Below are positions 16,589-32,250 of a stretch of 64,000 nt of DNA, one piece after another. The stretch spans positions 62,001-126,000 of the forward strand of contig NZ_JZUE01000001.1 of NCBI RefSeq assembly GCF_000969605.1. Reading direction: 5' to 3'. Below the pieces are notes generated by a model. The model was given only the letters and a program-made list of their open reading frames with translations, was not told the DNA's origin and ran no database searches. The first letter of the stretch is position 1; each line of letters starts with the position of its first letter. This stretch comes from Aquincola tertiaricarbonis. Lineage in GTDB: Bacteria; Pseudomonadota; Gammaproteobacteria; Burkholderiales; Burkholderiaceae_C. The position numbers were made by a program, and so were the translations under genes.

Positions 16589-17377
16589 TCACCAAGAGAG
16601 CAATTGGCACTGTGCCCGGTGGAAAGCGAGGTACGGCTGATGCTGTGGTGCCACCCACCTCAGCTGCAGGCCGGCCGTCAGCCCCAGCTGCTCTCGGGCC
16701 ACTGGTGGTACCGAAGGGGCGATGAGCAGCGTGCCGTGGTCTGTAAAGCTGGCCAGGTAGCTGTCGAACAGCGCATCCAGATTGGCGCTGAGCAGAAAGC
16801 CGTTGAATACATCGAGCCGCTCTGCGTCATGGGTGCACAGCGCCCAAGCCTTGGCATGGCTGGCCCTCAGGGCTTGCGGCACGGCCAGGCCCGTGACCGC
16901 GCAGGCGCCCTGCCAGTAGTCCAGCATGGCTTGGCGGAAGGCTTGCTGCCCCACCCGCTGGCGCACCATGCGCTGCACCTCGGTGTTCTTGGCCGCAGCA
17001 GGCTCCAGGCTTGCCAACGCCGCCTCTACGTCCGCCACGAACCCCGCCATCGCCTGGTTGGGCAGCGCCTGGGCCAGCGCCGCGGCCCGTCTCAGCCAAC
17101 GGGCCAAAGCAGCTACGTCTGCTGCGCGGTACGCCGTGGCTTCCGAGACCGTTGCGTTGGAGCCCGAAGGAAAGCTGCGGGACAGCTCGGCGGGCAGGCT
17201 GGGCGGTGAGCTCAGCAGCCTTGCATCGAAGCCTTGCGCGATGGCTTGCACCGACACGGTGGTGGCATGCCGCGCAGACCCCAGAATTAGCCAGCCATCG
17301 GCCGAGGACGGCAACACGTTTTCAAAGCCGTTGTCATGGCCAGCCTTCTCGATCAGCGCGCGCTGCAGCAGGTTCAT
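16589..17377 (-). CDS. HNH endonuclease (HNH_2-type), last gene of the defence operon
   Basis: A 262-residue protein. The C-terminal half has an HNH_2 module: YWQGACAVTG, then RASHAKAW (His, about residue 172) and NGFLLSANLDALFD (Asn and Asp, about 195-200), followed by IAPSVP. The N-terminal part, rich in Ala and Arg, has no recognisable domain and may bind DNA or a partner. It starts 25 bases after the RNA ligase stop and is the seventh gene of the operon. It could be the DNA-cutting effector of the system or an independent restriction nuclease; context favours the first. Confidence 0.75.
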   Translation of the reverse strand: MNLLQRALIEKAGHDNGFENVLPSSADGWLILGSARHATTVSVQAIAQGFDARLLSSPPSLPAELSRSFPSGSNATVSEATAYRAADVAALARWLRRAAALAQALPNQAMAGFVADVEAALASLEPAAAKNTEVQRMVRQRVGQQAFRQAMLDYWQGACAVTGLAVPQALRASHAKAWALCTHDAERLDVFNGFLLSANLDALFDSYLASFTDHGTLLIAPSVPPVAREQLGLTAGLQLRWVAPQHQPYLAFHRAQCQLLSW

Positions 17378-17402
17378 CGTAGGTGGGCGCTACAGGGTGG
17401 AG

Positions 17403-18110
17403 TCAGTGCCCGCTGGGCGTCGCCAAGCGATTCCATTCCACCTGGCGCCCGCGCCAGTGCTCGCCGATGGCCTGGGTGAAGTCTGCCCGCACGAGCTTCG
17501 CTCGCTGTTCGCACCAGTCGGCCGACTCCTTGCGGACGACGACGCCCTCCAGCGGGCCGTCCCGGAACCGGCTGGGCCAGATGTCCAGGCCTTTGATGAG
17601 ATCGTTAATGTGGAAATGCCCCTGGGCCACTCTTGGCGTCGTCACCAGGCCCAGACGCTCAGCCATGGCGTTGCGGCGCGTACTGCTCCAGAACCGTCCG
17701 GCTCCAGAGTCGAAGACGTCGAACAGTAGCAGCCAGTCTGGCAGCCGGGTGTAGGCGAGCGAGTGCCGGGCGGCGCACCACTCGCCAAACAGGATGAGTG
17801 GGGAGTCGTGGTGATCCAGAAGAGCCTCCGCGATGCCCTCGCCGTGCGCGGCCAGCCAAGCAGACAGGCGGGTGAACTGGCCCACGTGGGGCTCTGACAA
17901 GTAGGTGCCGCGGTTCTGCACGCGCAATTCACCCTCAGGTCCCAGCGAGAAGCCCAGGTTCGCACCGTCGAGCTTCTCTTCGACCGTCAAGGTGTGGGCC
18001 GTCAGCGAAGCCGCCTCGGAGGATGACAGCACCTTGTCTGCCCGCGATTCGGCCGGCCCAAGCCAGGCCAGATGGGGCGTGTGTGGAAAGCGGAAGAAGT
18101 CTCCTGTCAT
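17403..18110 (-). CDS. ATP-dependent RNA ligase (Rnl2-like nucleotidyltransferase)
   Basis: The 235 residues contain the nucleotidyltransferase motifs of RNA ligases and capping enzymes in order: motif I VEEKLDGANLG (adenylated Lys, about residue 45), motif III LFGEWCAARHS, motif IIIa LLLFDVFD, motif IV EGVVVRKE (about 190) and motif V RAKLVRADF (about 203). Length fits a bare catalytic domain of the Rnl2 or DRB0094 type, with no large C-terminal domain. Such enzymes seal RNA nicks. It overlaps the PIN nuclease gene by four bases (ATGA), so cutting and sealing enzymes are probably made together. Confidence 0.9.
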   Translation of the reverse strand: MTGDFFRFPHTPHLAWLGPAESRADKVLSSSEAASLTAHTLTVEEKLDGANLGFSLGPEGELRVQNRGTYLSEPHVGQFTRLSAWLAAHGEGIAEALLDHHDSPLILFGEWCAARHSLAYTRLPDWLLLFDVFDSGAGRFWSSTRRNAMAERLGLVTTPRVAQGHFHINDLIKGLDIWPSRFRDGPLEGVVVRKESADWCEQRAKLVRADFTQAIGEHWRGRQVEWNRLATPSGH

Positions 18111-18643
18111 GTGGCCGAGAGCTTAGCCTCGTACCACTCGTCAGGAAGCAAGCGAACAAAACACAAGCCGATCGCACGCAGCTGCTGCTCCGCACAGTAC
18201 CAGTCGGACTCCGCCGCGTAGACGATCGGCGGAACGGCTCCGTGCAATGTCTGCGCTGCCAGCGCACAGGCCACCCACTTGCGGTCTGCTCGGTCAGAGA
18301 CCAGCGCCTCGTGCTCGGGCTCAAGCACGGCAATGTGCTCCCCGTTGGCCTCCAGGGAATCGATGGGCACAAAGTCAACCTGGTTCCGGTCCAGCTTGCT
18401 CTGCAGCACCAGCAAACCGTACTCCTGCGCCTGCCAGTTATGGGGCAGATTGCGTTCGTACTCGTCCCGAATGAGTCCCACGTCGTCCAACACCAGGTGG
18501 TTCTGTGACTTGTCAAACTCGACCAGCCACTCGAAGACCTGTTCACGCAAAGCCTGCTCGCGAGGCATGGCTCGTGCGGCAACGAGGGAGAGCGCATGCA
18601 CTGCGCTGGCTGCAAGCATGACGTTTGTGTCAACCAGCATCAT
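18107..18643 (-). CDS. PIN-like nuclease
   Basis: A 178-residue protein starting MMLVDTNVMLAAS, with the first PIN Asp at residue 5, Glu in LIRDEYERNL and a later acidic group in SDRADRKWVACALAA (about residue 117). This is a PIN fold, although the domain is longer than VapC and the last acidic strand (VYAAESDWYC) is degenerate. The start was set at 18643, because upstream codons overlap the ATPase gene and are not PIN-like. It overlaps the ATPase stop by 14 bases and the RNA ligase start by four. ATPase plus PIN-like nuclease suggests an ATP-gated nuclease effector. Confidence 0.75.
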   Translation of the reverse strand: MMLVDTNVMLAASAVHALSLVAARAMPREQALREQVFEWLVEFDKSQNHLVLDDVGLIRDEYERNLPHNWQAQEYGLLVLQSKLDRNQVDFVPIDSLEANGEHIAVLEPEHEALVSDRADRKWVACALAAQTLHGAVPPIVYAAESDWYCAEQQLRAIGLCFVRLLPDEWYEAKLSAT

Positions 18644-19988
18644 GGCCACCTCGTGCCCTGAGCTCCCTGGCGCGCTGGATGGCAAGGGCCGTCTGTTCTC
18701 GCGTCTCGCCTAGAGCATCGCCGAAGAATTTGTCAGGCCAGTTGGCCACGCGCCCCAGGGCGTCTAGCTCCAGCTCGCGCAGCTTGGCCGCTTGGCCGTC
18801 GCGCTCCACGAAGTAGAGCGCTGCTTGATCGGGCTGCACCTCTTGCCGGGCGATCAGCGTTTGCAGCCGGCGGAACAGGTGCTCGGAGTGTGTCTCCACG
18901 ATGAACTGCACCCCGCGTTCCGCGCTGACTTTGGCGAGTAGTTCGGCCAACTTCGCCTGAGCCAGCGGGTGGAGGTGACTCTCGGGCTCCTCGACGATGA
19001 CGATGTGGCCAGGCTTCGCGAACAGGGCTGCTACCACCACAGGGATCACCTGCGAGACGCCGACGCCCACGTCCTTGAGGTTGACCAGAGCGTCGCGGTG
19101 CTTGACGAGCAACTCGTAGCGGGCCGAGCTGCCCAGCGCGCGCACTTGAAGACCATCAGCAATCTCCAGCGTCTTCAACCACTGCTCGGTCTCACGGAAG
19201 ATGCGCCCTGTGTCGGTTGCCGCCCCGCGCCTTCTTTGCTGTGCGACGCCGCTGGCGAGCAGCACATCGACCGCCCGCCCGCCGTCGTCCCCGATGTGGG
19301 CGGGCATGCGGCCGCTCCACACGTAGTCGCGGCGGGCCAGCTGGCGCACGGGGCCTAGGTAGATGATTCGGCTCAGCTCGTCCAGCAGTGCCGGACCCAC
19401 GGGTCGGATCTCTTCGACCCGCACGCCGAGCTTCTTCGTCTTGCTCAGCTTGTTCAGCGTGGCCGCTGAGAAAACGAAAGAGCGTTCAGGGCGGAAATCG
19501 GCGCTCTGCCCTACTGGGCTGGCCTGGCTGCCGAGGGACAGTCGATAGATGCCGGCCTTGCGTCGCTGCACGGCAAATCCCTGCCCATCCTGGCCTAGTC
19601 GCAGTGCTTCAAGTTCGGCGCTGCCGGCTGGGCCGGCGCGGTAGCGGGCCGAGAACATCGTAGTGTCGGCCGTCTCGCTGCCGTGGGGCTGCCAGCGAAA
19701 CTCGATGCCCACCTGGTTGTCTCGTGTCGTCTCGGTGGCCTGCCCGTGGCGGCACAGCAGGTCGCGGAACTGTCCCATCGTTACCGTGTCGCCGGCGTCG
19801 GGGTTACCCAGGTTGAGGTCGAGCCCGGCGTCGTTGCCCTTCACGGTCTGCCGCATCAGCAGCAGGCTCTGGATCAGGCTCGACTTGCCTGACGAGTTAG
19901 TTCCCAGCAGCAGCGTCAAAGGTGCAAGCCGCATAGGGCCAGTGCTGCGCCAGATCTTGAAGTTCTCGAGCTTGAGGTGCTTGAGCAT
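18630..19988 (-). CDS. AAA family ATPase, OLD-like/DUF3696 type without TOPRIM domain
   Basis: This 452-residue ABC-type ATPase starts MLKHLKLENFKIWRSTGPMR. Walker A is LLLGTNSSGKSSLIQSLL (about residue 32), and the C-terminal signature/Walker B region reads VGVGVSQVIPVVVAA, then HIVIVEEPESHLHPLAQ (about 333) and FIVETHSEHLFRRLQ (D-loop/H-loop). The short C-terminal extension fits the DUF3696-type relatives of OLD; no nuclease domain is present. In Septu, Gabija and PARIS, similar ATPases sense infection and switch on a separate nuclease, here most likely the PIN protein that follows. The start overlaps the methyltransferase stop (ATGA). Confidence 0.88.
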   Translation of the reverse strand: MLKHLKLENFKIWRSTGPMRLAPLTLLLGTNSSGKSSLIQSLLLMRQTVKGNDAGLDLNLGNPDAGDTVTMGQFRDLLCRHGQATETTRDNQVGIEFRWQPHGSETADTTMFSARYRAGPAGSAELEALRLGQDGQGFAVQRRKAGIYRLSLGSQASPVGQSADFRPERSFVFSAATLNKLSKTKKLGVRVEEIRPVGPALLDELSRIIYLGPVRQLARRDYVWSGRMPAHIGDDGGRAVDVLLASGVAQQRRRGAATDTGRIFRETEQWLKTLEIADGLQVRALGSSARYELLVKHRDALVNLKDVGVGVSQVIPVVVAALFAKPGHIVIVEEPESHLHPLAQAKLAELLAKVSAERGVQFIVETHSEHLFRRLQTLIARQEVQPDQAALYFVERDGQAAKLRELELDALGRVANWPDKFFGDALGETREQTALAIQRARELRARGGHDAG

Positions 19989-22900
19989 CAGCTTAGTGCT
20001 CCCGAGTCCAATCGGTCCCAAGCTTGCAGCACCAATTCTGCAGTGCGGAAGTGTCCACCGAACTCCTTCTCCTCCCGTTCTCGTAAGACGCGGAAGGTTT
20101 CGGACGGGTACCCGGGCCCCATCACATCTTCGGGATCCAAGATGTATCGCAACTCGTCGAGGGTGAGACCGTAGAGGCGGGCAAAGTAGGCGTCCAATTC
20201 AGCCCTTAGCCTTAATCTTGTGTCGATGTCAAAGCTGAACGGTTTTCCCTTGAAGCCAAGATCTTCGGCCCATGCTGCCAAATCATATGCGGTATAGGTC
20301 AGTGCTAGAACTCTAGGCACAATGAACTCAAGATCAGACTCGGTGTAGCGTAAGGGTGCGAGAGTCGGAAGCTGCTTGAGAATTTCCACTGTGAGGTGGG
20401 TCCCGCCAAGCTTTTGGCGGCATACGTAGTCGAACGGCAAACAGGAGAGATTGGCGAGGAAGGCTGCCGCAAGGCGCGGTGTTGCATCAATAAATGCGAT
20501 GCGCAACGTATGTGCGACGGCAACCCGCGGAAACACAGTGGCAATCACAGTGCGCTCGTTTGTCGCATTGGTAATATCCCGCCAGCCCATAAGCCATGGC
20601 CTCACCCAACTTTTGCTGGCCAAACGGTCTTCTACCCGAGGGGACGCCATCCAATATCGAGTCTGAACGGAAAACTGCGGATCTGCTTTTTCAGCACTAG
20701 AACACAGGGTGGCATCGACAGTTCCGGGCTTGGTGGAGGCCCACCTATGGTCGTAGATGTGGATGTGTTTCGCCTCATATAGCGGACGAAGTGAGTCTCG
20801 TAGCATTCCGTTGACTGTTGACAGCTCGATAAACTCATGGCTGTTGTCTGCCATGTCGAACATCTTTGTCATGTAGTCAAAGCGCCAAGGATTGATCTCG
20901 TTACCCTCCTTGTGTAGCGTCAGATAGGACGCAGCGCTGCGATAGATTTTCTTTGTAAGTTCGGCATCGCGCTCGCTTCGGAATACCGGACAGGTGAGTG
21001 AATTGGGATTGATAAGGCGAAACTCATCTGGGGTGAGCGTAAATCGACGACGCGAGTCAGCGAGCTGATCGATGGCCAGGATGTAGTGCGCGAGATCCAC
21101 ACTCGCGCGCGCACGACCCAGCGTGACGAGCGAGAAGGGGGTATCTGGGTGAACAGCGGGGAAAATTCTTCGCGCGTTGTCGAAGCCGAAAAGCGAGACC
21201 AGCCGATCATCATTGACCAGACTCTGAAAGAACCTCTTTGTGCTGTCGTCAGTGGCCAGACCCGAGGGCACGATGAAACCTGCTCGACCTTCGCTGTGTG
21301 TGACTTGGTTTATGGTCTCGGCAAAAAGGGCGTAGGTATTGACATCACCGACGCCGGTGAGTGGGTAGCGCCCGCCGTCCTCGCCCTTTACGTGTGCAAA
21401 GAGGCTGGTGGCCTCCGCCGTGCGGCGGGCGGTGATGAATTCGTCATACAGGTGCTGTTCCGCTTCACTCTCAGCCGGCGAGTGGTGCGACGTGTCGCCG
21501 GGGTATAGGTGCTGCGCCAGCATGCCTTCGCTCAGCCATTGGATGCGCTGGCTGCGCTCGGCCTTGTTCTTCGCCTCGGCGATGGCGGCGTGGCGAGAGG
21601 CAAAGAACTCTTCTTCCTGCAGCTTGATGCGCTCCCACGGCGGGTTGCCCAGTACGCAGTCGAAGCCGCCTGCCGCAAACACTTGGGGAAACGCCAGCGG
21701 CCAGTGCAGCACACGGGCCTTCGCGCAGGCCTCGTTCGCCGCCGCCTGGACAGCTTGCTGGGCCTGCTTGAGCGGCTCGCCCAGGAGCGTCAGGTAGAGG
21801 GTGGCCGTGGTGGGGCTGGTGTCGGCTGTCGCCGCGGTCTTGGGAAGCAGGTAGGCGCCGAGCAGCTGGTTGGCGGCCTGGGCCAGCCGGCCGGTGCGTG
21901 CTTGAGTCAGGTAAGCATCGTAGGCGGCGGCCTTGGCGGCGATCTGTTCGGTATCGCTTTCGGGCATGGCCTCGATGGCCTGCAGTGCCGCCAGTCCGCT
22001 GTCGGCCTGGTGCACCACGTCCAGCTGGCCAAAGGCCTTGGCCACGCGCTTCTTTTCCAGATCCTTCAAGGCCGTGCTGTTGGCTTTGGTGAGCTCCTTG
22101 CAAACGGCCTTGTCGTCGCCGGACAGCACCTTGAACGCATCCTTGGCGATGCCGTGCTCGAGTGCCTTCAGGTCCGTCAGGCCCAGCAGTGCATCACCGA
22201 CCTGCAGGTGGTGGTCCAGAAAGCCCAGGGGCCGGCCTTCCTCGAAGCCCTCGATCCAGAGCGCCGTGCGCGCCAGCTCGATGGCCATGGGATTGCGGTC
22301 GACTCCGAAGATGCAGCGGGCCACCACCTCACGCATGGCATGCCGGTAGGCCTGGGGCGTGACGGCGCCGTCGGCTGATCGCAGCGCCGCTACGCGCTCG
22401 GCAATGCGCCGTGCCGCGGCCAGCAGGAAGTGCCCGCTGCCGCACGCTGGGTCCACCACCTTCAGCGAGAGCAGGGCCTCCATCGGCTGCTGGGGGTTCT
22501 GGGCAACGCGGTCATCGATGACATGGTCGAGTGCGCTGCGGATCAGTTCCTGCACCAGGCTCTTGGGCGTGTAATAGCTGCCGCTGGTCTTGCGCTCGTT
22601 GCCGGCGGTGCTGCCTTCGCTCGTGAGGCCGACGAAGCCGAAGCTGCGGGCATGCACGTCTACTTCGGGCACCAGCTCCAGCAGGCTTTCGTAGACGCTG
22701 CCCAGTTCCTCGGTGTCCATGTTGTGGTAGCTGATGGGCGAAAGCGAGCCGCCTGCCGTGGTGGTCCAGCGCAGGCTCTTGATGGCGGCGAGGAGGCTGG
22801 CGTTGCTCAGCGAAGCGTCATCGAGGTCGGGGCATTGGGTGTCAGCGAACAGGCCCCCTAGAGCCAGCAGGCCCAGTCGCGGTTGGCCCTTGCCCAGGCC

Positions 22901-24058
22901 GCGGAAGACGATGCGCACCGCTTGCCAAAGATCGTTGTGGCGGTTCTGGGCGCGGCGACGCAGGGCCAGGTCGCGAAGGCGGGCCATGGCATAGCCCTCG
23001 GCATACAACTGGGCGGCGGCGTGGCGGGCCTGCACCGTGGCGTCGTCGTCACCCGGTTGAGCCGCAGCAGGGATCAGGCCGCGCTCTTCCACGGTGAACA
23101 GGAAGATGAAGCGGTACACCAGCCGCAGCAGTTGGGCGAAGTAGTCCTCGCGCTTCAGCACGCCCGTCTGCAGCTTCACGCGCAGGGCATCGTTGGCCGG
23201 GTTCTGAACGAAGCCTTGTCCCAGGGTGATGAGGGCCTCGGTCACGCCGCGGCGAAGGCCCTCGCGGACCCGGGTACCTTCCTCCTGACCGGCCTGTTGC
23301 CAGGTGGCCCAGGCCACGGGCGGCGGCGCCTTGGCGGCGTCTTCTGTGGCCAGGTCCAACAGGCCTGCGCGGCTGGCCTGCAGCAGGTACCAGGCGCTGC
23401 GGAACTCCACGAAGCGTTGGCCGGCCAGCAGGTCTTGCAAGTCCACTTCCAGGTAGCTGGGGCGGGTGAGCGTGGCGGCATCTCGCAGTAGGCGCAGGGT
23501 GCGCCCGTTGCTGACCAGCGCCCACTCGTGTGCCGGGCTGGCGTTGAGGAACTCTTGGGCCAGCTGGAACGATGACTTACGCTTGGCCCCAGAGCCCTGC
23601 ACCGCAAAGCGCGGATCGGGGTCGTCCAGGCCTTGGTTGTGCGGCGCCACGACGATGGCCACCGACTTGGCGCCAGCGGCCTTTGCCGCCGGCGCCGGGT
23701 GTGCGAGGTGGGTGATGGGATAGGTGCGGTCGCCGATGGGCACGCCGCTGACGGCGGCGACGGCGGGGTAGGCCAGCGCATCGCGCAGCAGCTCGCTCAC
23801 GAACTGCACGCTGGCGCGCTGCGGGTTGAAGTCAGAGCGTTCCAGCAAGGCGGCGAAGGTGCGCCATTGCGCGCTGGCGATCTGGAAGGCCCGGCTGGCC
23901 TCGTCACGCAGCTTCAGGCCCTTCGGCAGGCCGTAGTCGGCCTCGGTCTGCAGGCGGCCCTGGCCCAGCGCGGCCTTCTCCAGGATGTCGGGCAGGAACA
24001 AGCTGCCTTCCAGGCGCAGTGCCGGAAGGTTCAGGCCGGTGGTTCGAGAGGTCTTCAT
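19988..24058 (-). CDS. Large N6-adenine DNA methyltransferase (DISARM DrmMI/PglX-like)
   Basis: The 1356-residue protein has an N-terminal alpha-helical region, then a gamma-class methyltransferase: motif I VVDPACGSGHFLLAAA (about residue 535), IFGVDRNPMAIELARTAL, and motif IV FDCVLGNPPWERIK (about 800). NPPW indicates N6-adenine methylation. A long C-terminal part with a likely target-recognition region follows (TRYWMASPRVEDRL, CRQKLGGTHLTVEIL). There is no restriction nuclease domain. Size and layout fit the Eco57I-like methylases of class 1 DISARM (DrmMI) and BREX (PglX); these mark host DNA as self. It lies 23 bases after the SNF2 helicase and overlaps the ATPase gene. Confidence 0.9.
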   Translation of the reverse strand: MKTSRTTGLNLPALRLEGSLFLPDILEKAALGQGRLQTEADYGLPKGLKLRDEASRAFQIASAQWRTFAALLERSDFNPQRASVQFVSELLRDALAYPAVAAVSGVPIGDRTYPITHLAHPAPAAKAAGAKSVAIVVAPHNQGLDDPDPRFAVQGSGAKRKSSFQLAQEFLNASPAHEWALVSNGRTLRLLRDAATLTRPSYLEVDLQDLLAGQRFVEFRSAWYLLQASRAGLLDLATEDAAKAPPPVAWATWQQAGQEEGTRVREGLRRGVTEALITLGQGFVQNPANDALRVKLQTGVLKREDYFAQLLRLVYRFIFLFTVEERGLIPAAAQPGDDDATVQARHAAAQLYAEGYAMARLRDLALRRRAQNRHNDLWQAVRIVFRGLGKGQPRLGLLALGGLFADTQCPDLDDASLSNASLLAAIKSLRWTTTAGGSLSPISYHNMDTEELGSVYESLLELVPEVDVHARSFGFVGLTSEGSTAGNERKTSGSYYTPKSLVQELIRSALDHVIDDRVAQNPQQPMEALLSLKVVDPACGSGHFLLAAARRIAERVAALRSADGAVTPQAYRHAMREVVARCIFGVDRNPMAIELARTALWIEGFEEGRPLGFLDHHLQVGDALLGLTDLKALEHGIAKDAFKVLSGDDKAVCKELTKANSTALKDLEKKRVAKAFGQLDVVHQADSGLAALQAIEAMPESDTEQIAAKAAAYDAYLTQARTGRLAQAANQLLGAYLLPKTAATADTSPTTATLYLTLLGEPLKQAQQAVQAAANEACAKARVLHWPLAFPQVFAAGGFDCVLGNPPWERIKLQEEEFFASRHAAIAEAKNKAERSQRIQWLSEGMLAQHLYPGDTSHHSPAESEAEQHLYDEFITARRTAEATSLFAHVKGEDGGRYPLTGVGDVNTYALFAETINQVTHSEGRAGFIVPSGLATDDSTKRFFQSLVNDDRLVSLFGFDNARRIFPAVHPDTPFSLVTLGRARASVDLAHYILAIDQLADSRRRFTLTPDEFRLINPNSLTCPVFRSERDAELTKKIYRSAASYLTLHKEGNEINPWRFDYMTKMFDMADNSHEFIELSTVNGMLRDSLRPLYEAKHIHIYDHRWASTKPGTVDATLCSSAEKADPQFSVQTRYWMASPRVEDRLASKSWVRPWLMGWRDITNATNERTVIATVFPRVAVAHTLRIAFIDATPRLAAAFLANLSCLPFDYVCRQKLGGTHLTVEILKQLPTLAPLRYTESDLEFIVPRVLALTYTAYDLAAWAEDLGFKGKPFSFDIDTRLRLRAELDAYFARLYGLTLDELRYILDPEDVMGPGYPSETFRVLREREEKEFGGHFRTAELVLQAWDRLDSGALS

Positions 24059-24081: not shown

Positions 24082-26934
24082 TTACACCGTATCAGGCAGC
24101 AGCACGTACACGCCCACCAGGTCCACCGGCAGGCAGGGCTGCACCTGGTGCTGACCGCCGCCGCGGCGCTCGGTGGCCTTGCGCACGCGTTCGTGGTCTT
24201 GCAGCAGCTCGGCGGCCCGCTGGTTGGCCAGCTCGTTGAGCCGCGGGGTCTCTGCCTGCAGCGCTTCAAGTGCCTTCGTCACCTCGCGTTCGGCGGCTTC
24301 GCGTGGCAGGTTGCCGGCCGGGGTGCTCTCCAGCAGGCGGGCAGCCTCGGGGCCTGTCAGCCACTCGGGGTTCTGCCGCCCGCGGATGGCCAGGGCCACG
24401 CACTCTTCGGCCAGCATCTGGTGGCTCACCTGCTTGCGTTGGTAGGCCAGCTGGTGGCGCAGCCGCAGCAGCACCACGGTGGTGACACGGTCCACGCTGG
24501 CGGTGACGGTGGCTGCGCTGCGGGCGGCCAGGGTGCTTTCGCCCTGCAATGAGGTTTCGATCAAGTACTCGGCCAGCACGCTCACCAGCGGGTGGCTGCG
24601 GTGCAGCTCTGTGGTGTCCAGCAGCAGCGGCTTGTTGCTGCCCTCGGGGACTAGGCCTTCGTCGGCCAGGCGTAGGCGAAGCGCTTCTGGCAGGTGTTGG
24701 GGGTGTAGCCGGTGCTGATCGCGGTGGGCCTCCAGCGGGGCGTTCAGGCGCGCGCAGGCGCTGGCTAGGAAGCGCTGCACATCGGCCTGCGAGCCCAGGG
24801 CCTCTTGCTGCTTGTGCCACTCGGGCAGAACCTCGCCCGGCCGGATGGCCCGCTGGGCGAACACGGTGCGGTTACTGCGTGCCTTGTCCAGCGCGTCTTG
24901 CCAGCGGGTCTGCAGCGGTGCGAGCAGTTGCTCGGGCTCGCCGAAGTCAAAGGTTTGCTGCGGGCTGGCGTTGGTGCTGCGCCGCATCAGTGCCGCCTTG
25001 ACCAGGGCCTGGTTGATGCGAGGGCGGTCTTCGGGCATGGGCACCAGCACTCCCAGCTCCTTCTGGATGGCATCGCCCTTGCGCAGGATGACCTTGAGGA
25101 CGAAGCCATCGACCGGGTTGTCCTGCCCGTAGAGCATGGTGCATCGCACCTCGGTGGCGCGCTGGCCGTAGCGGTCGACACGGCCTTCCCGCTGCTCGTG
25201 GCGGGTGGGGTTCCAGGCCAGGTCGTAGTGCACGACGGCCGTGAACAGGTGCTGGAGGTTGATACCTTCCGACAGGCAGTCGGTGGCTACCAGGACTCGG
25301 CCGGTTTCCTTGTCAGCCTCGCCCATGCGGTTGACGCGTTCGCGGCGCTCTTCGGGCACCAGTTCGCCCGTCACCGCATCGACCATGGCCTTGGGAAAGT
25401 GCTTGCGCAGCTCGGCCGCCACGTAGTTGGCGGTGGCCACGTAGCGGCAGAAAACGACGGGGGCGTAGCCGTCCTTCAGGAGGTCGCCGATGTGGGCCAC
25501 CAGTGCAGCCAGCTTGGGGTCGCCCGCCGCGCCGCTGAGGCGCTCTGCTGTAGCGATGAGGGCCTGCAGACGCTGCGCACCGGCTTCTGCCTGCAGTTGG
25601 GCAGCGGGCTCCAGGTCGAGGCTGCTCAGGTCTTCAGCCGCCCCGTCTTGCAGGTCGGCCAGGGCGGCGTCTTCCTCGGTGTCATCGCCGTCCTCTCCCA
25701 GGCCCAGGTGTCCTTCGAGCCGCGTGTTGAGGGCCTTGGCGGCCGCAGCCGGTGATGACGCCACGCAGCGCAGCAAGGCCAGCGTGGCGTACCAGATCAG
25801 CCGTGCGCCGCCAGCGTCCCCCGAACGCTCGACGTTCTCGGCCAACTCACGGCAGTAGGCCTGTACGTCGTCGAAGAAGCTGCCCCAGGCGCCGCTGAGG
25901 CGGTAGGTGACCTCGGCCTTCATGCGACGGGGGAAGCCGTGGCCGTCTTGGGTGGCGGTTTGCCACTCGACGATGTCTTTGCGGCGGCGTTGAACGAAGT
26001 GCAGTGCCAGCTGCTCTCGCAGCGGATCATCCTTTGACGTGCGGTGCTGCAGCTCGGCGAAGACGGGATTGATCAGCGACAGCAGGTTGAAGAACGCCAC
26101 CTCGTCGCCCGAGTGGGGCGTGGCGGTCAGCAGCAGCAGGTGGCGCTCAGCGTTGGCCGCCAAGCGCTGCAGCAGTTCAAAGCGCAGCTGCTTGCCGGCA
26201 CCGCTGGCCGAACAGGTGTGGGCCTCGTCCACCACGATGCATTCGGGTGCGATGGAGAGGAAGTGCTCGCGGTGGCGTTCGCTCTTGATGTAGTCGAGGC
26301 TGACCACCACCACGGGGTGGTGATCGAACAGGCCCACGCCGTGGGGCAGCTGCCGCTCCAGGCGGCTGGCGCTGGCGGCCGTCAGCGCCACGGCGGGCAG
26401 GTTGAAGCGCTGCTGCAGCTCGCCCTGCCACTGTTCCACCAGGTGCGGTGGGCAGAGCACGGCAACGCGCTGGATTTCGCCCCGGTCCATCAGCTCGCGG
26501 ACGATCAGCGAGGCTTCGATGGTCTTGCCGATGCCGACGTCGTCGCCAATCAGCAAGCGCACGGTGGGCAGCCGCAGCGCCATGAGCAGCGGCACCAGCT
26601 GATAGGCCCGCGGCTCCACGGCGATATTGCCGAAGCTGCGGAACGGGCCGGCGCCGGCGCGCAGCTTCAGGCGCAGGGCATCGCGCAGCAGCAGGGCTGC
26701 GGCGTGGTTGCCTGCCTGGGCCGGATCGGGCTTCTCGAACGTGGCCGGTTCGACCGGGCTGAATTCCTCCAGCTCTGGCAACAGTGTGATCACGTCGCCG
26801 TCAGAGCCGCCCAGGGGCCGCAGACGCAGGGCGGAGGCGCCATCCGCCAGCCGGGTGTCGGACTGAACCACCCACTCGCGGCCGCGGGCCCGAACGAGGT
26901 TGCCAGGCAGGAACTCGGTGGCGGTTGTTGTCAT
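24082..26934 (-). CDS. SNF2-family helicase (DISARM DrmD-like)
   Basis: The 950 residues form a SNF2/RapA-type DNA translocase. Visible are the Q-like LRLPTVRLLIGDDVGIGKTIEA Walker A block (about residue 133), motif II CIVVDEAHTCS (about 234), motif III LLTATPHSG, and the C-terminal helicase motifs DCLSEGINLQ and QREGRVDRYGQ (about 583). The first 60 residues (LPGNLVRARGREWVV) resemble the beta-barrel leader of RapA/DrmD proteins. In DISARM class 1, DrmD stands next to DrmMI, as here. The start is 18 bases past the stop of the large helicase. Confidence 0.9.
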   Translation of the reverse strand: MTTTATEFLPGNLVRARGREWVVQSDTRLADGASALRLRPLGGSDGDVITLLPELEEFSPVEPATFEKPDPAQAGNHAAALLLRDALRLKLRAGAGPFRSFGNIAVEPRAYQLVPLLMALRLPTVRLLIGDDVGIGKTIEASLIVRELMDRGEIQRVAVLCPPHLVEQWQGELQQRFNLPAVALTAASASRLERQLPHGVGLFDHHPVVVVSLDYIKSERHREHFLSIAPECIVVDEAHTCSASGAGKQLRFELLQRLAANAERHLLLLTATPHSGDEVAFFNLLSLINPVFAELQHRTSKDDPLREQLALHFVQRRRKDIVEWQTATQDGHGFPRRMKAEVTYRLSGAWGSFFDDVQAYCRELAENVERSGDAGGARLIWYATLALLRCVASSPAAAAKALNTRLEGHLGLGEDGDDTEEDAALADLQDGAAEDLSSLDLEPAAQLQAEAGAQRLQALIATAERLSGAAGDPKLAALVAHIGDLLKDGYAPVVFCRYVATANYVAAELRKHFPKAMVDAVTGELVPEERRERVNRMGEADKETGRVLVATDCLSEGINLQHLFTAVVHYDLAWNPTRHEQREGRVDRYGQRATEVRCTMLYGQDNPVDGFVLKVILRKGDAIQKELGVLVPMPEDRPRINQALVKAALMRRSTNASPQQTFDFGEPEQLLAPLQTRWQDALDKARSNRTVFAQRAIRPGEVLPEWHKQQEALGSQADVQRFLASACARLNAPLEAHRDQHRLHPQHLPEALRLRLADEGLVPEGSNKPLLLDTTELHRSHPLVSVLAEYLIETSLQGESTLAARSAATVTASVDRVTTVVLLRLRHQLAYQRKQVSHQMLAEECVALAIRGRQNPEWLTGPEAARLLESTPAGNLPREAAEREVTKALEALQAETPRLNELANQRAAELLQDHERVRKATERRGGGQHQVQPCLPVDLVGVYVLLPDTV

Positions 26935-26952
26935 CAGCTTGCGGAAATGAAG

Positions 26953-29900
26953 TCAGGCGAACAGGGCGGCATGAGTGCTGAATTGTTGCGCCCACTGGGA
27001 TGGGTCCGACATGTCCAGCACCGTCCAGCCCAGATCGGCCAGTTCTGACACCAAATCGGGCTGCAAGGGCTCGAGTGCCACGAGCGTGCGGGTGGCCTTG
27101 TAGCGGGCTGCAACCTGGGCACGCCCCCCCAGGACGGCGAGTTGGCCCTCGTCGGGCGCGCGACAGCCTGCAGCCCGGGCGGCGAGCAGCCACTGGGCGT
27201 GTTTGTCGTCGCTAGCGGCCGCCGGAGGCTGTGATGGTGCCGCTGGGGCGGAGACCTCGGCCGCCTGGGGAGCCACCCGGGCGTTGGCCAGTGCGACCAA
27301 CAAGCCTAAGGCGCCCGCGTCGCGGCGGTTGATGTGCTCGTGGTCTGGCTGGTTGAAGTAGGACAGCAGGCACTGGTAGCAGCCCGCTTCGCAGATGCTG
27401 CTGCCGTCTTTGCGCTTGATCTCAAGATCCGGTAGCCCATCCACCGACCAGGCGCCGCTGGGCTTGCGATGGTGCATCAGTTCGAGGGCCTGTGCCGCTA
27501 CCTGTGCCAGGGCATCGGGCTCCGTTGCCAGGCGGGTGAGCACACCGGCACCGCCCTCCGCGGCTTCGTAGAACAGCAACGCCTTGCGGTCGTCCTGGGT
27601 GGGCAGCGGCTCTGCGACGAGCTCGGACTCTTCGATCTGGAACACCAGTTCGATGCCGCGCTTGAGCGCCGCCTGGAGCGTGGCCATGGCCGGGGCTTCG
27701 AGAGACTTGACGGGGGCCAGGATCAGAACGTTGCGGTGGTCCTCAACGAAGGGGACGATGGACTGGTTGGGAACCTTGTTGAGCAGCTCCTCCGCTGGCT
27801 CTGCCGCGTCGTCGCTGCCGCCGGGTTCGTCTTTCCGGCTCCACTGGCCGGTGATGGGGTTGATGTAGAAGCCCAGCTGTTCCTTGTGCTTGCGGCGGCG
27901 CCATCCCCGGTTGATGCGCCAGATCTGCGCGGCGGGGGCGTACTTCAGGCTGGCGAGCGGAGAGTCCGCGTCGCCAGCGGCGTCCATCACCAGCGAGGTC
28001 TGCAGCGCGATCCGACCCTCCGGGCCTGGCAAGAAGCGGTAGGTGGTCTGCAGCTCGAAGCCCTGGCGCTGGCGGTCTTCGTCGTTGATGGAGATGCGCT
28101 CCACTGGAACGGTCTCCACCGTCTCGATGCGGTAGAGGTTGCGCACCCAGTCATGGTCGGTGAGCAGGGCGCCGCAGTTCTCGCACAGGTTCTCGGTGGG
28201 CTCGGAGCCGTCTTCGCCGCCCATATGAGCATAGCCACACTGGCTGCATACGCGGCTTGCCACCGTGGCCAAGGTGGTGTTTCCCGACACGTGGTCTGCC
28301 GAGCCGACGTTGAGCTTGGCACGCACCACGCGGTACATGCGGCCCTGGTGGTAGATGAGGCTGCGGGGGCCGAATTCCGATAGCGCCAGGAACCGGGGAC
28401 GGCTCACCATGCTGCCTTCATCGTCCTTGCCCTTGACCATGTTGCCCCCACGCGCCGGAATCCAGGCCATCAGCGGCAGGCGCGGAAAGTTGTAGCCAGG
28501 CAGGAAGCCTTGGCTGGCCAGGTAGCGGTACGTGTAGAAGTCGGAGTTCTGGGTGTTGCCCGACTTCAGCAGCACGGCGTACTGCCTGGCCGCATCGCCG
28601 TAGCGGCGCTGGGCGTTCTGCTTCTCCTGGTGCGTGGTGGTGTAACTCTTCACCACCTGGTCCGCCATGTCCATTTGTTTGCGCGTGGCGTCGACCATCA
28701 CCCGCCAGCGGCCGAAGGCGGCGTTGAACTCTGCGCTGGCTTGCTGCATCGCAGCGGAGACGTGCGCGTCTGTGAACCACGTGCTGGACGACAGCAGCGG
28801 ACGAATCTGTCGCATCAGGCGCTCCCCGCTTTCCGTGGCCCGTAGGGTGACCTCGGGCGCCTCCAGCGCCGCTCGGAGTGCGGGAACGAGCGGCTTGTCG
28901 GGCTTCTCCAGATCGAGCAGCGGTGCGATGCTGGTGTCCAACTGCACCTGGGCAGCCGCGAGCCACACGGCATGCAGATGGCTGTCGATGAGGTCGCGGT
29001 TGGCCAGATCGAGCGTAGGCGGTCGGACCACACCGTGCACCATCTCGTTGGCGTGGTGGAAGAACCACTGGTCGTGCGGGCTCAAGGCCGCGCAGTAGGT
29101 AATGACGAGAGCCTGCTGCCCCGAACGGCCTGCACGGCCGCTGCGCTGCGCGTAGTTGGCCGGCGTAGGGGGAACGTTGCGCAGGTAGACCGTATTGAGG
29201 GCCGAGATGTCGACGCCCAGCTCCATGGTCGGCGAGCAGAACATCACCGGCAGCCGCTCAAGCGGGGCCTCATGGGCGGGGTTCTCCAGCCAGTCCTTTC
29301 GGTCCTTCTCGGTGTAGCGGAAGCGCTGTTCGAGCAGCTGACGCCGGCCCGCATCAACTTGCGCGGTGTGCTCCTGCGCCTCGAAGTCGAACAGCGTGTG
29401 CTGCTGCTGGGTAAGGGTGGCAGCGACTGAAAGGTAGAGCTGCCGGAAGAAGCGGTTGTGCTTGCCCTCTTGCTCGACCTCGCGGGTGTCGACGAGCACC
29501 CAGTCCATGGCGGAGGCGTTCAGGCGCCAGCCGATCAGGTTGGGCTCGACCTCATGCCGCTGCGCGTAGCCGTAGTGCGAGGCGCCGATGAGGAACAGTT
29601 GCAGCAGCTCCAGCCACTGGGCGTCTTTCCAGCCCTTGACGTTGCCCAGCAGGTTGGGCGACTTCCACAGGGGAAGCACCTTCAGCTCCTTAAGGAGACG
29701 CGAACGCGCCCCGCCAGGCACCAGGTCCGTCCGGGGCTTGCCCTTTTTGTCGTCTGGCCGCTTGCTGAGAATCAACCAACGCGACGTTTCAAGGTTCTCA
29801 TCGCCGAAGTTCCACCGCTCGCTGAGGTACTGGAATGCGGTGGTCTTGGCGCGTTCTTGTTCGACCGGGTCGAGGTAGCGGGTCTGCAGGCACAAAGCGC

Positions 29901-32250
29901 GCCGCATCGCGTTGAACACCGTGGCGGCCATCTCCGTGCGCTGGGCCGGGGTCATGGCGGAGAGCACGGGGTTCGCGGCAAAGAGCGTCGCTTCGCTGCT
30001 GAACTCGTCCAGACCTCGGTACTGAATGGCCAGCAGGTTGAGCTGGTCAAGGTTGGGGTTGTTGAAGCGCCAACCGCGGCGCAGGTCTCGAAGCAGGCGG
30101 TAGCCCAGGATGAAGCGCAGGGTGCGCTGGGCTTCTTGGCGGGCCAAGCCCATGAGCTTAGGCGTCTTCAGGTACTCCGCGAGCGTGCCGGCGTCGGTGC
30201 GGTCGAAGCCGAGAGCCTTGAACACGGCATCGGCCAGATGCTCTTCGTCGAGCACGCTGCCTTGCTTCTGCAGCGCGGCCACGAGTGCCGAACGAAGGGT
30301 GAGCAGGAAGACGAAGTCGTTGAAGTGCCCGGCCTGCAGGGCGGCGTCTTGGCGGTTGTCGGAGAAGCCCAGGAGTTTGCGAGGGTCTGGCTGGTCCGAA
30401 AAAGGCTCTCCCAGCTCGAACAGCTGACGTAGGGCGCTGAGGGTCAGCATCGTCGTTGCCGATGAGCGCCCTTCGCCGGACAGGCTGGCCAGGCGGTTCA
30501 TGTCTTTGCCGTAGGCCTCGTGCGTGAGCCCGCAGCCCAGGCAGAAGCGGTACTTGCCCGGGATGAACCAGTACTCCCCACCGGGCCCCGTGGCGCCTTG
30601 CGGAGTGACGCTGACGGACTCCGGCACGGCGTGCTTGTAGGTGGACTTGACCTTCGGCTCGACCTTGGTCAGGTCGAGCCAGCTCTCGGGCAGGTCCTCC
30701 CAGCTGTTGTAGGTCAGCCCAGGGCGGACGGGGCAGAGGAAGCCGTAACGCGCATCCTCATCGTCGTCGCCAGAGATGTCATCGATCTCGCGGGGATCGA
30801 AGCTGGGTGCCCCTTTTCCCGAGCGCCACACGGGGTGGTACTCCTGACCACAGTCGCGGCAGAAGTGGACGGGGTAGAGGCGGGTGCCCTCTGTCTGGCG
30901 CCCGGGGGCGAACCGCTGGGCGTCGAGGGTGATGTGCCGCTGGCCCGGAGCTTCCAGTGTGGCCAGCACCTTGCCTGGACCGCTGATGAACTGGTGCAGC
31001 TTAAACGCAAAGGGTGCCCGGCCCTGCGGGGTGCGCATGTCATGAGCGGCTACCAGGAAGCGGCGAAGTCCCTCCTTCGCGACCTCCACCTGGCACCCCG
31101 CGTCAGCGGCCAGACGCGATGAAGCCTCATTGAGGGTGATCGGCTTCGCTCGGCGAGGTGGTTGGTCGGCCGGGAGGTCGATGCCCAGGTTGAGCTCGAC
31201 CCAGATCGCCAAGGGGTCGTCCTTGAAAGCGTCGAAGCTGGGCCACGAGTGCTCAGCTTTCTTGAGAGCCGCGAGCAGCAATCGCTTGACGGCCGCAACG
31301 TCACGAGACGGGTTCGTGACCCGCTCAAGGGTTTCGCCAATCACATCTAGCGCCGTAAGCGGTGTGCCGAACAGCAGGCTCGCGACGTCGGCGACGGCCT
31401 TGTTGCGATCGTCTTCCCGCTCGGAGGAGGACATCGTGGCTGAGGTGCCGATGCACACGAGCTGTTCGGCCTGCAGGCGTTCTCGAATGCGGCGCACAAG
31501 CATGGCCACGTCCGCACCCTGTCGCCCGCGATAGGTGTGCAGCTCGTCCAGCACCAGGAACTCCAGGCCTCGGCAGTGATCGACGACGCGGCGATCGATG
31601 TCTTCGAAGCGCGTGAGGATCAGCTCCAACATCATGAAGTTGGTAAGCAGGATGTCGGGCGGGTTGTCGGCGATAGCCTTGCGCTCGTCGCTGCTCTCTT
31701 GGCCGGTGTAGCGCTTGGCGCTGAAGGGCTCTTGCCCAGCCGCATAGCCATGCAGGAACTTGTCGAGTTCTTCGAGCTGGCTGTTCGCCAGCGCGTTCAT
31801 CGGGTAGATGACGATCGCGCGGGTGCGGGGTGTCGGGTCGGCCTGCTTGGCCTTGAGGATTCGGTCGATGACTGGGATGAAGAAAGACAGCGACTTGCCG
31901 GACCCGGTGCCGGTGGTCACGACGTAGCTCTGCTGCTGGTGCGCTTTGGCAATCGCTTGCAGCTGATGTACGTAGAGGTGAAGGTTGGCGGGCTTGCCTT
32001 CCACCTTGCCGGTCTTGAACAGCTCTGCACAGGACGAATGCAGGCTGCCCTGGGCGACCAACTCTTGAACAGTGCCGCTACGCTTGTAGTTCGGATTGAT
32101 CTGGATGAGCGGCTCTGGCCAGTAGCGGCCGCGGGCGTACTCTTCCTCCACCCGGGAAGCCAAATCCGCGGCGGCAATTCGGGAAAAGCTGCGCGAGAAC
32201 GCGCTGTACTCGTCGACGAGACGGTTGCGGAAGTCGAAGACGTCCTTCAC
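26953..32250 (-). CDS. Giant DEAD/DEAH helicase with C-terminal DUF1998-type region (DruE-like or DrmA-DrmB fusion-like)
   Basis: This 1765-residue first gene of the operon has superfamily 2 helicase motifs: Walker A VVTTGTGSGKSLSFF (about residue 115), IVIYPMNALANSQ, motif II VLDELHTYRGRQGADVAML (about 234), GTSATMSS, and in the second lobe MELGVDISALNTV and YAQRSGRAGRSGQ (about 1038). A zinc-binding block follows (CSQCGYAHMGG and LCENCGALL, about 1335-1365). The C-terminus has the DUF1998 signature: YEAAEGGAGVL and CEAGCYQCLLSYFNQ (about 1623). Helicase plus DUF1998 in one chain of this size is the hallmark of Druantia DruE, whereas DISARM splits these functions between DrmA and DrmB. It most likely loads onto or unwinds foreign DNA. 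Confidence 0.88.
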   Translation of the reverse strand: MKDVFDFRNRLVDEYSAFSRSFSRIAAADLASRVEEEYARGRYWPEPLIQINPNYKRSGTVQELVAQGSLHSSCAELFKTGKVEGKPANLHLYVHQLQAIAKAHQQQSYVVTTGTGSGKSLSFFIPVIDRILKAKQADPTPRTRAIVIYPMNALANSQLEELDKFLHGYAAGQEPFSAKRYTGQESSDERKAIADNPPDILLTNFMMLELILTRFEDIDRRVVDHCRGLEFLVLDELHTYRGRQGADVAMLVRRIRERLQAEQLVCIGTSATMSSSEREDDRNKAVADVASLLFGTPLTALDVIGETLERVTNPSRDVAAVKRLLLAALKKAEHSWPSFDAFKDDPLAIWVELNLGIDLPADQPPRRAKPITLNEASSRLAADAGCQVEVAKEGLRRFLVAAHDMRTPQGRAPFAFKLHQFISGPGKVLATLEAPGQRHITLDAQRFAPGRQTEGTRLYPVHFCRDCGQEYHPVWRSGKGAPSFDPREIDDISGDDDEDARYGFLCPVRPGLTYNSWEDLPESWLDLTKVEPKVKSTYKHAVPESVSVTPQGATGPGGEYWFIPGKYRFCLGCGLTHEAYGKDMNRLASLSGEGRSSATTMLTLSALRQLFELGEPFSDQPDPRKLLGFSDNRQDAALQAGHFNDFVFLLTLRSALVAALQKQGSVLDEEHLADAVFKALGFDRTDAGTLAEYLKTPKLMGLARQEAQRTLRFILGYRLLRDLRRGWRFNNPNLDQLNLLAIQYRGLDEFSSEATLFAANPVLSAMTPAQRTEMAATVFNAMRRALCLQTRYLDPVEQERAKTTAFQYLSERWNFGDENLETSRWLILSKRPDDKKGKPRTDLVPGGARSRLLKELKVLPLWKSPNLLGNVKGWKDAQWLELLQLFLIGASHYGYAQRHEVEPNLIGWRLNASAMDWVLVDTREVEQEGKHNRFFRQLYLSVAATLTQQQHTLFDFEAQEHTAQVDAGRRQLLEQRFRYTEKDRKDWLENPAHEAPLERLPVMFCSPTMELGVDISALNTVYLRNVPPTPANYAQRSGRAGRSGQQALVITYCAALSPHDQWFFHHANEMVHGVVRPPTLDLANRDLIDSHLHAVWLAAAQVQLDTSIAPLLDLEKPDKPLVPALRAALEAPEVTLRATESGERLMRQIRPLLSSSTWFTDAHVSAAMQQASAEFNAAFGRWRVMVDATRKQMDMADQVVKSYTTTHQEKQNAQRRYGDAARQYAVLLKSGNTQNSDFYTYRYLASQGFLPGYNFPRLPLMAWIPARGGNMVKGKDDEGSMVSRPRFLALSEFGPRSLIYHQGRMYRVVRAKLNVGSADHVSGNTTLATVASRVCSQCGYAHMGGEDGSEPTENLCENCGALLTDHDWVRNLYRIETVETVPVERISINDEDRQRQGFELQTTYRFLPGPEGRIALQTSLVMDAAGDADSPLASLKYAPAAQIWRINRGWRRRKHKEQLGFYINPITGQWSRKDEPGGSDDAAEPAEELLNKVPNQSIVPFVEDHRNVLILAPVKSLEAPAMATLQAALKRGIELVFQIEESELVAEPLPTQDDRKALLFYEAAEGGAGVLTRLATEPDALAQVAAQALELMHHRKPSGAWSVDGLPDLEIKRKDGSSICEAGCYQCLLSYFNQPDHEHINRRDAGALGLLVALANARVAPQAAEVSAPAAPSQPPAAASDDKHAQWLLAARAAGCRAPDEGQLAVLGGRAQVAARYKATRTLVALEPLQPDLVSELADLGWTVLDMSDPSQWAQQFSTHAALFA

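Follow-up and report, generated by a model that had tools for sequence, protein, structure and literature searches.

An ARMADA type I-like defence operon of Aquincola tertiaricarbonis with an HNH gene and a candidate mobile ATPase–PIN–RNA ligase cargo

Why would an operon with the helicases and methylase of a DNA defence system also encode an enzyme predicted to seal RNA? The question is raised by a run of seven tightly packed open reading frames on the minus strand (16589-32250) of the window, by which we mean the whole 64,000-nucleotide stretch of Aquincola tertiaricarbonis contig NZ_JZUE01000001.1 that was analysed, with positions counted from its first letter. An initial annotation, made from the sequence alone, had described these frames as one composite defence operon encoding a helicase with DUF1998, an SNF2 helicase, an adenine methylase, an OLD-like ATPase, a PIN nuclease, an RNA ligase and an HNH nuclease. 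The reading that we favour, and to which we give an even chance, is that of an ARMADA type I-like defence system, in an HNH-bearing variant, which carries a mobile ATPase–PIN–RNA ligase cargo and may work in two layers.

A seven-gene operon with an ARMADA type I-like core

From gene 1 to gene 7, the listed frames encode 1765, 950, 1356, 463, 192, 235 and 262 amino acids. Reading of the window sequence bore out the arrangement on one strand, with gaps of 18, 23 and 25 bases following genes 1, 2 and 6 (the ligase), respectively, and with overlaps at the other junctions. The methylase stop and an ATPase ATG at 19988 share a TGATG, this ATG lying 11 codons inside the listed TTG start; the ATPase and PIN frames overlap by 11 (or 14) bases, with a PIN ATG at 18640 or 18643 preferred over the TTG at 18685; and the PIN and ligase genes meet in an ATGA overlap. 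Judged from the sequence, the ATPase and PIN starts are better placed at these internal ATGs (19988; 18640 or 18643). Genes 1-4, 6 and 7 carry the motifs GSGKS/DELH, GIGKT/DEAH, NPPW, GTNSSGKS, KLDG and ASH..NG, respectively. No sigma-70-like promoter was found in 16000-33200, compared with 1.6 expected from shuffles, which is weak evidence either way.

Pfam confirmed the helicase–DUF1998, SNF2, adenine methylase, RNA ligase and HNH families, and an AlphaFold model recovered the PIN fold. Gene 4 (18630..19988; 452 residues from its ATG) matches AAA_15/AAA_21 and DUF3696 in Pfam and HEC-03B at 275 bits in PADLOC, so that the ATPase half of the “OLD-like” label stands while its Toprim half does not, as no Pfam Toprim match was found for this protein.

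Gene 1 (26953..32250; 1765 residues) encodes a YprA/DruE-like, ArmC-like SF2 helicase in a single chain, with DEAD, Helicase_C and MZB (the same as DUF1998) matches in Pfam and DruE as the best PADLOC match at 300 bits. Its MZB domain spans residues 1525-1628, and five CxxC motifs lie at 464, 570, 1335, 1356 and 1624. Gene 2 (24082..26934; 950 residues) is an SNF2/BrxHII/DrmD-like helicase that matches SNF2-rel_dom and Helicase_C in Pfam and, in PADLOC, DpdE (PDLC02853) over its full length at 674 bits and DrmD at 290 bits. Gene 3 (19988..24058; 1356 residues) encodes a PglX/DrmMI-like N6-adenine methylase with Eco57I/N6_Mtase matches in Pfam, DrmMI at 224 bits in PADLOC and the NPPW motif at residue 805.

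The available text of a preprint on ARMADA (Bell et al. 2025, PMC12458937) describes a helicase closest to that of Druantia alongside two other proteins common to DISARM. Its type I loci generally follow the order YprA, BrxHII-like, PglX-like, with a helicase that ends in a Vsr nuclease predicted to be active, and protection in E. coli is reported there for type II and not for type I (PMC12458937). Genes 1-3 follow this order by their domains, and gene 1 is a single-chain YprA with DUF1998 and extra zinc motifs, judged on MZB and CxxC. The C-terminal Vsr motif is lost in gene 1, and the operon is filed for this reason as a variant of ARMADA type I and not as a canonical member. From these sequence features we identify genes 1-3 as an ARMADA type I-like core with considerable confidence.

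The partners of DruE in Druantia are DruA-D, DruF-G or DruH. A hybrid of DISARM and Druantia, or a new system, had been proposed initially because DISARM-like parts (SNF2, methylase) and a Druantia-like part (helicase with DUF1998) occur here without DrmC. The parts list held, in that the DrmD, DrmMI and DruE profiles of PADLOC all match and DrmC is reached at only 16.4 bits, by gene 7, with no phospholipase D-like Pfam match among the seven proteins. The hybrid did not. Gene 2 scores 335.1 bits against the NCBIfam DrmD model, under its cut-off of 610; the split DrmA and DrmB of class 1 DISARM are replaced by a fused MZB chain in gene 1; and only DruE represents Druantia, with no partner profile listed for the other six genes. 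Among the PADLOC matches listed, no DISARM or Druantia partner profile exceeds the 16.4 bits of DrmC for the seven genes, and none of DrmB, DrmC or the Druantia partners appears for ten neighbouring frames at 32-50 kb. As the combination is already in print as ARMADA (PMC12458937, available text), the hybrid was rejected as the primary reading, and we regard it as most improbable.

An HNH gene accompanies degenerate Vsr domains

If the helicase has lost its nuclease, what might cut DNA in its place? The C-terminal 115 residues of gene 1 lack the motif [IVL][YFW][ILVMF][DE]G.{0,3}H, which is kept in other homologues. Gene 7 (16589..17377; 262 residues) encodes an HNH_2 nuclease of an ARMADA-associated family, in which H174, N192, D201 and D205 are invariant across 18 sequences. 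To compare the two features, loci (labelled L) were collected through searches with gene 2, which has relatives in 13 of 398 phylum-sample genomes and 7 of 369 class-sample genomes (genomes labelled G), both counts including the window's own. Eleven of the 12 other phylum-sample genomes were taken (G445, in pieces, was left out), as were 9 of 12 plasmid records (three near-duplicates were left out), and four ligase-centred loci that show the helicase C-terminus were added (L068, L075, L077, L086). Loci whose contig ends before or inside the methylase (L082, L164, L189, L156) and loci without a scored YprA C-terminus (L044, L094, L188) were left out.

The Vsr motif is degenerate in 15 scored YprA C-termini, and an HNH-family gene stands behind the methylase in 14 of them: the window, L032, L068, L075, L077, L086, L154, L162, L163, L165, L167, L168, L180 and L182. 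L167 was scored as degenerate first, and its HNH gene was located later across the start of the plasmid record, in L183. Among the 11 loci with an intact Vsr and the region behind the methylase in view (L155, L157-L161, L166, L169, L185-L187), none has an HNH-profile match, even at E 0.01. The association gives a Fisher p of 1.6e-6, which becomes 3.4e-5 when the four ligase-centred loci are left out, on rows that are related and not corrected for kinship. Because the HNH gene accompanies degenerate Vsr domains and never intact ones, it probably replaces the decayed Vsr in trans. In total, the sequence pattern is strong and independent replication of it is weak.

The ATPase, PIN and ligase genes recur as a unit

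The remaining genes of the operon were followed through the best 80 of at least 499 ligase-profile relatives in named genomes (L051-L130), a set that leans to close relatives because it was taken by similarity; the profiles used to count PIN, ATPase and HNH genes were built from these same loci. With 11 loci set aside that have less than 2.1 kb before the ligase, an ATPase was found upstream in 55 of 69 loci (one being the PD-T4-4 ATPase of L075), a PIN gene in 57 and both in 52. The PIN stop and the ligase start overlap or lie at most 10 bases apart in 48 of 58 loci. A wider view, covering 55 of the 80 loci, contained the full trio 40 times, PIN and ligase five times, ATPase and ligase three times and the ligase without either seven times; among the last, L129 has a PIN frame missed by the distance rule and L125 a weak, different PIN gene. 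PIN–ligase pairs without an ATPase occur in L099, L108, L112, L113, L127 and L129, five of the six from Burkholderiales or Aquabacterium by title.

Of the 40 trios, 13 have both an ARMADA methylase and, no more than 7 kb away, an HNH-family gene; the latter lies at most 1.6 kb from the ligase in 11 of them and 5.8 kb away in L088 and L105. Two trios have the methylase only (L111, L126) and three the HNH gene only, L103 being placed there by the distance rule with its methylase 6.6 kb upstream; the other 22 lie outside an ARMADA operon by the same rule. All seven families in order, as in the window, recur in L068, L077 and L094, where YprA is partly in view, and in L086, where the methylase and ATPase genes are split into pieces. 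One could read the operon as a single machine in which all seven parts serve one DNA-targeting reaction, in keeping with the 13 of 55 ligase loci that combine methylase, trio and HNH gene. Trios without ARMADA and ARMADA operons with an HNH gene but no trio (L154, L162, L163, L168) both exist, however, which makes this reading very improbable; a strict seven-gene unit was rejected since its parts occur separately. Independence of the last four genes from the first three, the outcome named initially as speaking against a single system, is thus seen for the trio but not for the HNH gene, which in one ARMADA variant accompanies the core of helicases and methylase.

A second sample, of 398 genomes not chosen for ARMADA, guards against the bias of the best 80. 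Ligase relatives at E ≤1e-20 were found in 16 of these genomes, and the 11 intact high-scoring ligases (at least 238 bits, the window's own included) all stand in the order ATPase, PIN, ligase, one of them (G526) with a single TAG inside the matched stretch. The other five comprise a fragment in G007 and four distant relatives (165-173 bits) with no ATPase or PIN match nearby. The class sample holds a ligase in 6 of 369 genomes, including the G007 fragment and one distant relative. By title, trios occur in Burkholderiales and other Proteobacteria, Pelotalea, Geobacter, Verrucomicrobia and cyanobacteria, and an actinomycetotal plasmid (L172) carries a DUF3696 gene, a PIN-sized hypothetical gene and an RNA ligase gene in that order. 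A plasmid search with the PIN protein gave no match, while one with the operon DNA gave partial matches to four records, including an Acidithiobacillus caldus plasmid (L032). On the evidence of these neighbourhoods, the trio is a real mobile unit.

Some relatives of the ligase were seen in other company. A distant one (33% identity) on a Pseudomonas aeruginosa plasmid precedes a gene annotated as an AAA ATPase (L173 7956-9974), and those of L228, L229 and L050 adjoin a similar-looking gene of 381 residues, perhaps as a separate RNA-repair pair. Beside two lone ligases, with Pelagibius and Kiloniellaceae titles, stands a divergent macro-domain gene (L121 9341-9862, called by Pfam; L115 9325-9951, called by sequence likeness).

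No paper combining DUF3696 and RNA ligase was found in the literature search. The portable ATPase–PIN–ligase cassette, the cargo slot described below and the Vsr-to-HNH exchange are new as far as the literature was searched; the ARMADA type I core, the candidate system HEC-03, and the RNA ligase and PIN folds were already known.

Fold and chemistry of the PIN nuclease and the RNA ligase

What the trio might do depends on what its two enzymes break and join. Gene 5 (18107..18640; 177 residues from its ATG) has no Pfam match and reaches HEC-03A at 37 bits in PADLOC, and PF13470 (PIN_3) is found weakly in 10 of 38 relatives. Its AlphaFold model has a mean predicted local distance difference test score (pLDDT) of 94.4, and the best VIA-align matches are VapC21 and VapC15 (Z 9.3 over 121 residues, middling scores), with further VapC toxins ranking below. 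A PDB profile search returned one unrelated chain only, and Foldseek alone gave nothing at E <0.001. Residues T5, N6, D52, E60, D116 and D119 are invariant in 38 sequences. With this acidic active site and the modelled fold, gene 5 is a predicted PIN nuclease of the VapC type. VapC enzymes are described, in the available part of the literature, as cutting initiator tRNA anticodon loops or the sarcin-ricin loop (PMC5408214).

Gene 6 (17403..18110; 235 residues) matches RNA_ligase (PF09414) at 107.6 bits, and its residues K46, D48, G49, E110, E188 and K205 are invariant in 72 sequences. The first matches of its model (pLDDT 92.8) are RNA-editing ligase 1 and the Naegleria and T4 Rnl2 ligases, with TM-scores by query of 0.54-0.62. 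By nucleotidyltransferase motifs, lysine nucleophile and modelled fold, the protein is a predicted Rnl2-type RNA ligase.

It is also conceivable that the ligase mends DNA nicks left by the HNH protein or the helicases, and so belongs to the DNA layer and not with the PIN protein. Its fold is common to DNA ligases, its best match in a PDB profile search is an Aquifex protein that was deposited under the name DNA ligase (E 1.4e-5; a single-sequence PDB search gave no match), and it adjoins the HNH gene in many loci, both persisting as fragments in G007. Yet Foldseek ranks 1-36 are all RNA or tRNA ligases, as are 38 and 39, with the Aquifex entry 3qwu (named DNA ligase) at 37 and 40 and DNA ligases from 41 onward, and the first 36 include Palaeococcus entries named DNA ligase in the profile search. 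The Pfam match is to RNA_ligase, 24 of the 40 trio loci have the gene beside PIN but no HNH gene by the distance rule (the 22 outside ARMADA, L111 and L126), and two-gene PIN–ligase pairs exist (L099, L108, L112, L113, L127). A DNA ligase is thus disfavoured by the fold ranking despite the deposited name of the best profile match, and we judge a role in DNA nick repair to be unlikely.

Metal-dependent PIN nucleases leave 5'-phosphate and 3'-OH ends, which an Rnl2-type ligase joins directly. PrrC leaves a 2',3'-cyclic phosphate and a 5'-OH, and T4 is described as healing such breaks with Pnk before Rnl1 seals them (available text of PMC3506569 and PMC2610378). No end-healing enzyme is found in the trio. 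As the ends left by PIN can be joined by an Rnl2-type ligase with no prior healing, the pairing of the two genes makes chemical sense.

A variable slot between the methylase and the HNH gene

The trio occupies a slot between the methylase and HNH genes of the window, and the content of this slot varies in related operons. In L163 it contains nothing, in L154 and L162 an LmuB look-alike (judged from the sequence start), in L168 a gene annotated as SMC, and in L165 an ATPase–PIN pair without a ligase. LmuB-like genes were also seen in L072 (41 bits), by clustering in L093 and by sequence start in L155, and L107 has a gene resembling prokaryotic Argonaute (pAgo; 583 bits) between the methylase and the ATPase. 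In three loci where the ATPase–PIN pair is missing, another candidate effector comes before the ligase: PD-T4-4 A and B (673 and 310 bits) replace the pair at 7969-10735 in L075; an AAA_13/PDC-S46 protein (706 bits) precedes the ligase in L091, with an SLFN_AlbA_2 protein and a ParA-looking gene behind it; and an RmrA-like gene and a weak-PIN protein (22.0 bits, cut-off 23.6) stand before the ligase in L125. From these arrangements, the ligase can follow other candidate effectors too, such as PD-T4-4 and the AAA_13 protein.

Traces of loss were found as well. The Acidithiobacillus caldus plasmid (L032) has a frame of 65 residues (19826-20023), directly before its HNH gene, which matches the C-terminus of the ligase over 53 residues at 55% identity and is likely the trace of a lost trio. 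The same plasmid carries a Phd/VapC pair at 15275-15909, between its SNF2 and methylase genes. In G007 (L049 8955-9679), a ligase fragment is followed by an adjoining HNH fragment, probably the remains of a lost system. More defence modules may be sought in the slot that separates methylase and HNH gene.

Trio relatives in other restriction loci

Is the trio tied to ARMADA, or does it merely lodge there? Outside ARMADA, two trios (L063, L067) have hsdM and then hsdS (Methylase_S in both) before them and hsdR after them, with a type I methylase profile at 777 bits in L063 and a type I restriction profile at 519 bits in L067. In L041, the trio is flanked by a DUF1156 methylase and by a gene that has an SNF2-like stretch, and a DUF499 gene lies upstream; L221 resembles this arrangement from its sequence starts. 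L042 has the ATPase–PIN pair, with no ligase, beside an N6_N4 methylase. A trio in G441 (L225) follows an AlbA_2-looking gene and precedes an SNF2 helicase (328 bits), perhaps another restriction-like setting.

The trio could instead be an independent defence or toxin module in a hospitable ARMADA slot, for which the shared transcript would provide expression only, with no functional coupling. This fits the 22 of 40 trios outside ARMADA and a slot that takes LmuB-like, pAgo (L107) or PD-T4-4 (L075) cargo, or none (L163). Against it stand the TGATG stop-start coupling of ATPase to methylase, the insertion between, and not beside, the hsdS and hsdR genes of type I loci, and the repeated choice of restriction operons. 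We consider this alternative rather unlikely.

PrrC lies between hsdS and hsdR. The available text of PMC3506569 and PMC2610378 places prrC with hsdMSR and describes PrrC as held latent by the hsd complex, answering when a phage defeats restriction. By analogy with PrrC, the ATPase could tie the PIN protein to the state of the ARMADA layer.

A proposed two-layer mechanism

Taking gene content and order, catalytic residues, the PIN–ligase pairing, the Vsr/HNH pattern and the mobility of the trio as observed, we infer each step of the following mechanism for the ARMADA type I-like system and its cargo. Host DNA would be marked by the PglX-like methylase, unmarked incoming DNA would be engaged by the SNF2 and YprA helicases, and the HNH protein would cut in place of the decayed Vsr. 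In a second layer, the ATPase would keep the VapC-like PIN protein latent and free it once the DNA-restriction layer is engaged or disabled, following the logic of PrrC. The freed PIN protein would nick an RNA of the cell, with a tRNA anticodon loop or an rRNA loop as the likeliest target, and translation would stall. Because PIN ends need no prior healing, the ligase could limit leaky damage or restore the RNA afterwards, making the arrest reversible and not suicidal. The initial proposal that the ATPase gates a nuclease is plausible on this analogy, and the gated nuclease is most likely the RNase (PIN) that is paired with the ligase.

The presence of the trio in this operon suggests that a defence toxin comes together with an enzyme able to repair its damage; the ligase may be an antidote, serve in recovery or take part in the attack. 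We put forward the break-and-reseal mechanism tentatively, at somewhat less than an even chance. Its broader form is a shade more tentative still: a portable cassette for self-reversing abortive defence, in which an ATPase-gated PIN nuclease of anticodon or rRNA loops and its own Rnl2-type ligase would serve as a reversible back-up alarm in unrelated restriction operons (ARMADA I, type I restriction–modification, DUF499/DUF1156).

Several observations weigh against this account. Only two of the 22 trios outside ARMADA are in hsd operons and three beside other helicase or methylase genes (L051, L076, L114), and no restriction gene was recognised, mostly by eye, in the other 17; coupling to DNA restriction is on these counts optional. 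ATPase–PIN pairs occur without a ligase (L040, L042, L165), the ligase lacks an adjacent PIN match in 12 of 69 loci (although one of these, L129, does contain a PIN frame), and in L055, L078, L089, L115 and L121 nothing recognised as an effector directly precedes the ligase. PIN residue D4 is nearly, not fully, invariant in the 38 sequences, and the best PDB profile match of the ligase carries the name of a DNA ligase. On the DNA side, the Vsr motif pattern was set after the alignment had been viewed, and L181 is a borderline case, without both the defined motif and an HNH gene. A quick tree built from 26 rows, one of them a long outgroup, and with L165 and the four partial helicases left out, needs three Vsr-state and two HNH changes, and the sign test on it is not significant and cannot reach significance.

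Should PIN and ligase work as their folds and chemistry suggest, an RNase toxin with a dedicated repair enzyme would turn a presumed suicide into a reversible pause. The Vsr/HNH exchange, if true, would be a case of a defence helicase whose nuclease has passed to a gene of its own, and would mark out an ARMADA subtype that can be tested.

Genomic setting beside glmS

Tn7-like elements in attTn7 have one end near glmS and Tns-like genes at the other end, a geometry that is seen here. A 26-base imperfect inverted repeat has its left copy at 16386..16411 on the plus strand, 25 bases past the stop of glmS (14531-16360), and its right copy at 62272..62297 on the minus strand. The two match at 22 of 26 positions, with a score of 32 compared with a best of 28 among 500 shuffles. 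Close to the right end, on the plus strand (57437..62191), lie a TnsC-like AAA_22 gene (26.6 bits in Pfam, cut-off 27) and two TniQ/TnsD-like genes with TniQ and TnsD matches, none of which has an NCBIfam match; the two frames before the TnsC-like gene have no Pfam or NCBIfam match, and TnsA and TnsB were not recognised. The operon sits at the glmS end of the bounded region and thus appears to be glmS-proximal cargo of a putative Tn7-like element of about 46 kb (16386-62297). No target-site duplication was found at the element ends, and in G747, a genome of the same genus considered as an empty site (glmS with 90% DNA identity), the 3.8 kb that follow glmS showed no match to the right flank. 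Further cargo at 35412-43877 comprises a DUF2779 gene, a WYL/WCX regulator, a SIR2 gene and a gene for a large AAA ATPase that weakly resembles IetA, an anti-phage ATPase (102 bits in PADLOC).

Comparison with known systems

The operon shares with ARMADA type I, as described in the available text of PMC12458937, the YprA-like, BrxHII-like, PglX-like order and the single-chain helicase with DUF1998 and CxxC zinc motifs; it differs in its degenerate Vsr and in the HNH gene and ATPase–PIN–ligase cargo slot that follow the methylase. In the main text of that preprint, the words ligase, PIN and ATPase are absent, and HNH appears only in a reference. With class 1 DISARM and Druantia the operon has homologous helicases and a methylase in common, whereas DrmB, DrmC or Druantia partners were not found in it. 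HEC-03, where HEC stands for Hma-embedded candidate (PADLOC-DB; available text of PMC12988326), may correspond to the first two trio genes, with an ATPase (HEC-03B, 275 bits) followed by a small PIN-like protein (HEC-03A, only 37 bits); in the window an RNA ligase comes next, which no PADLOC model matches at E 0.01.

Like VapBC type II toxin-antitoxin systems, the operon encodes a nuclease with the VapC PIN fold, but in place of an antitoxin-like gene it has an ATPase and an RNA ligase. Its ligase shares the nucleotidyltransferase fold and the motif I KxDG of Rnl2-type enzymes (T4 Rnl2, trypanosome REL1, Naegleria Rnl); it is shorter, at 235 residues compared with 317-340 in the full-length T4 Rnl2 and Naegleria structures, and is linked in its operon to a PIN nuclease. 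The closest parallel in logic is PrrC/EcoprrI, likewise an ATPase-controlled RNase module at a DNA restriction locus, with trio relatives between hsdS and hsdR. PrrC is a single protein that joins an ABC NTPase to a HEPN-type nuclease, whereas the window has a separate PIN nuclease; and the breaks that PrrC makes are mended by the phage, through T4 Pnk and Rnl1 (available text of PMC3506569 and PMC2610378), whereas the window encodes a ligase together with the nuclease.

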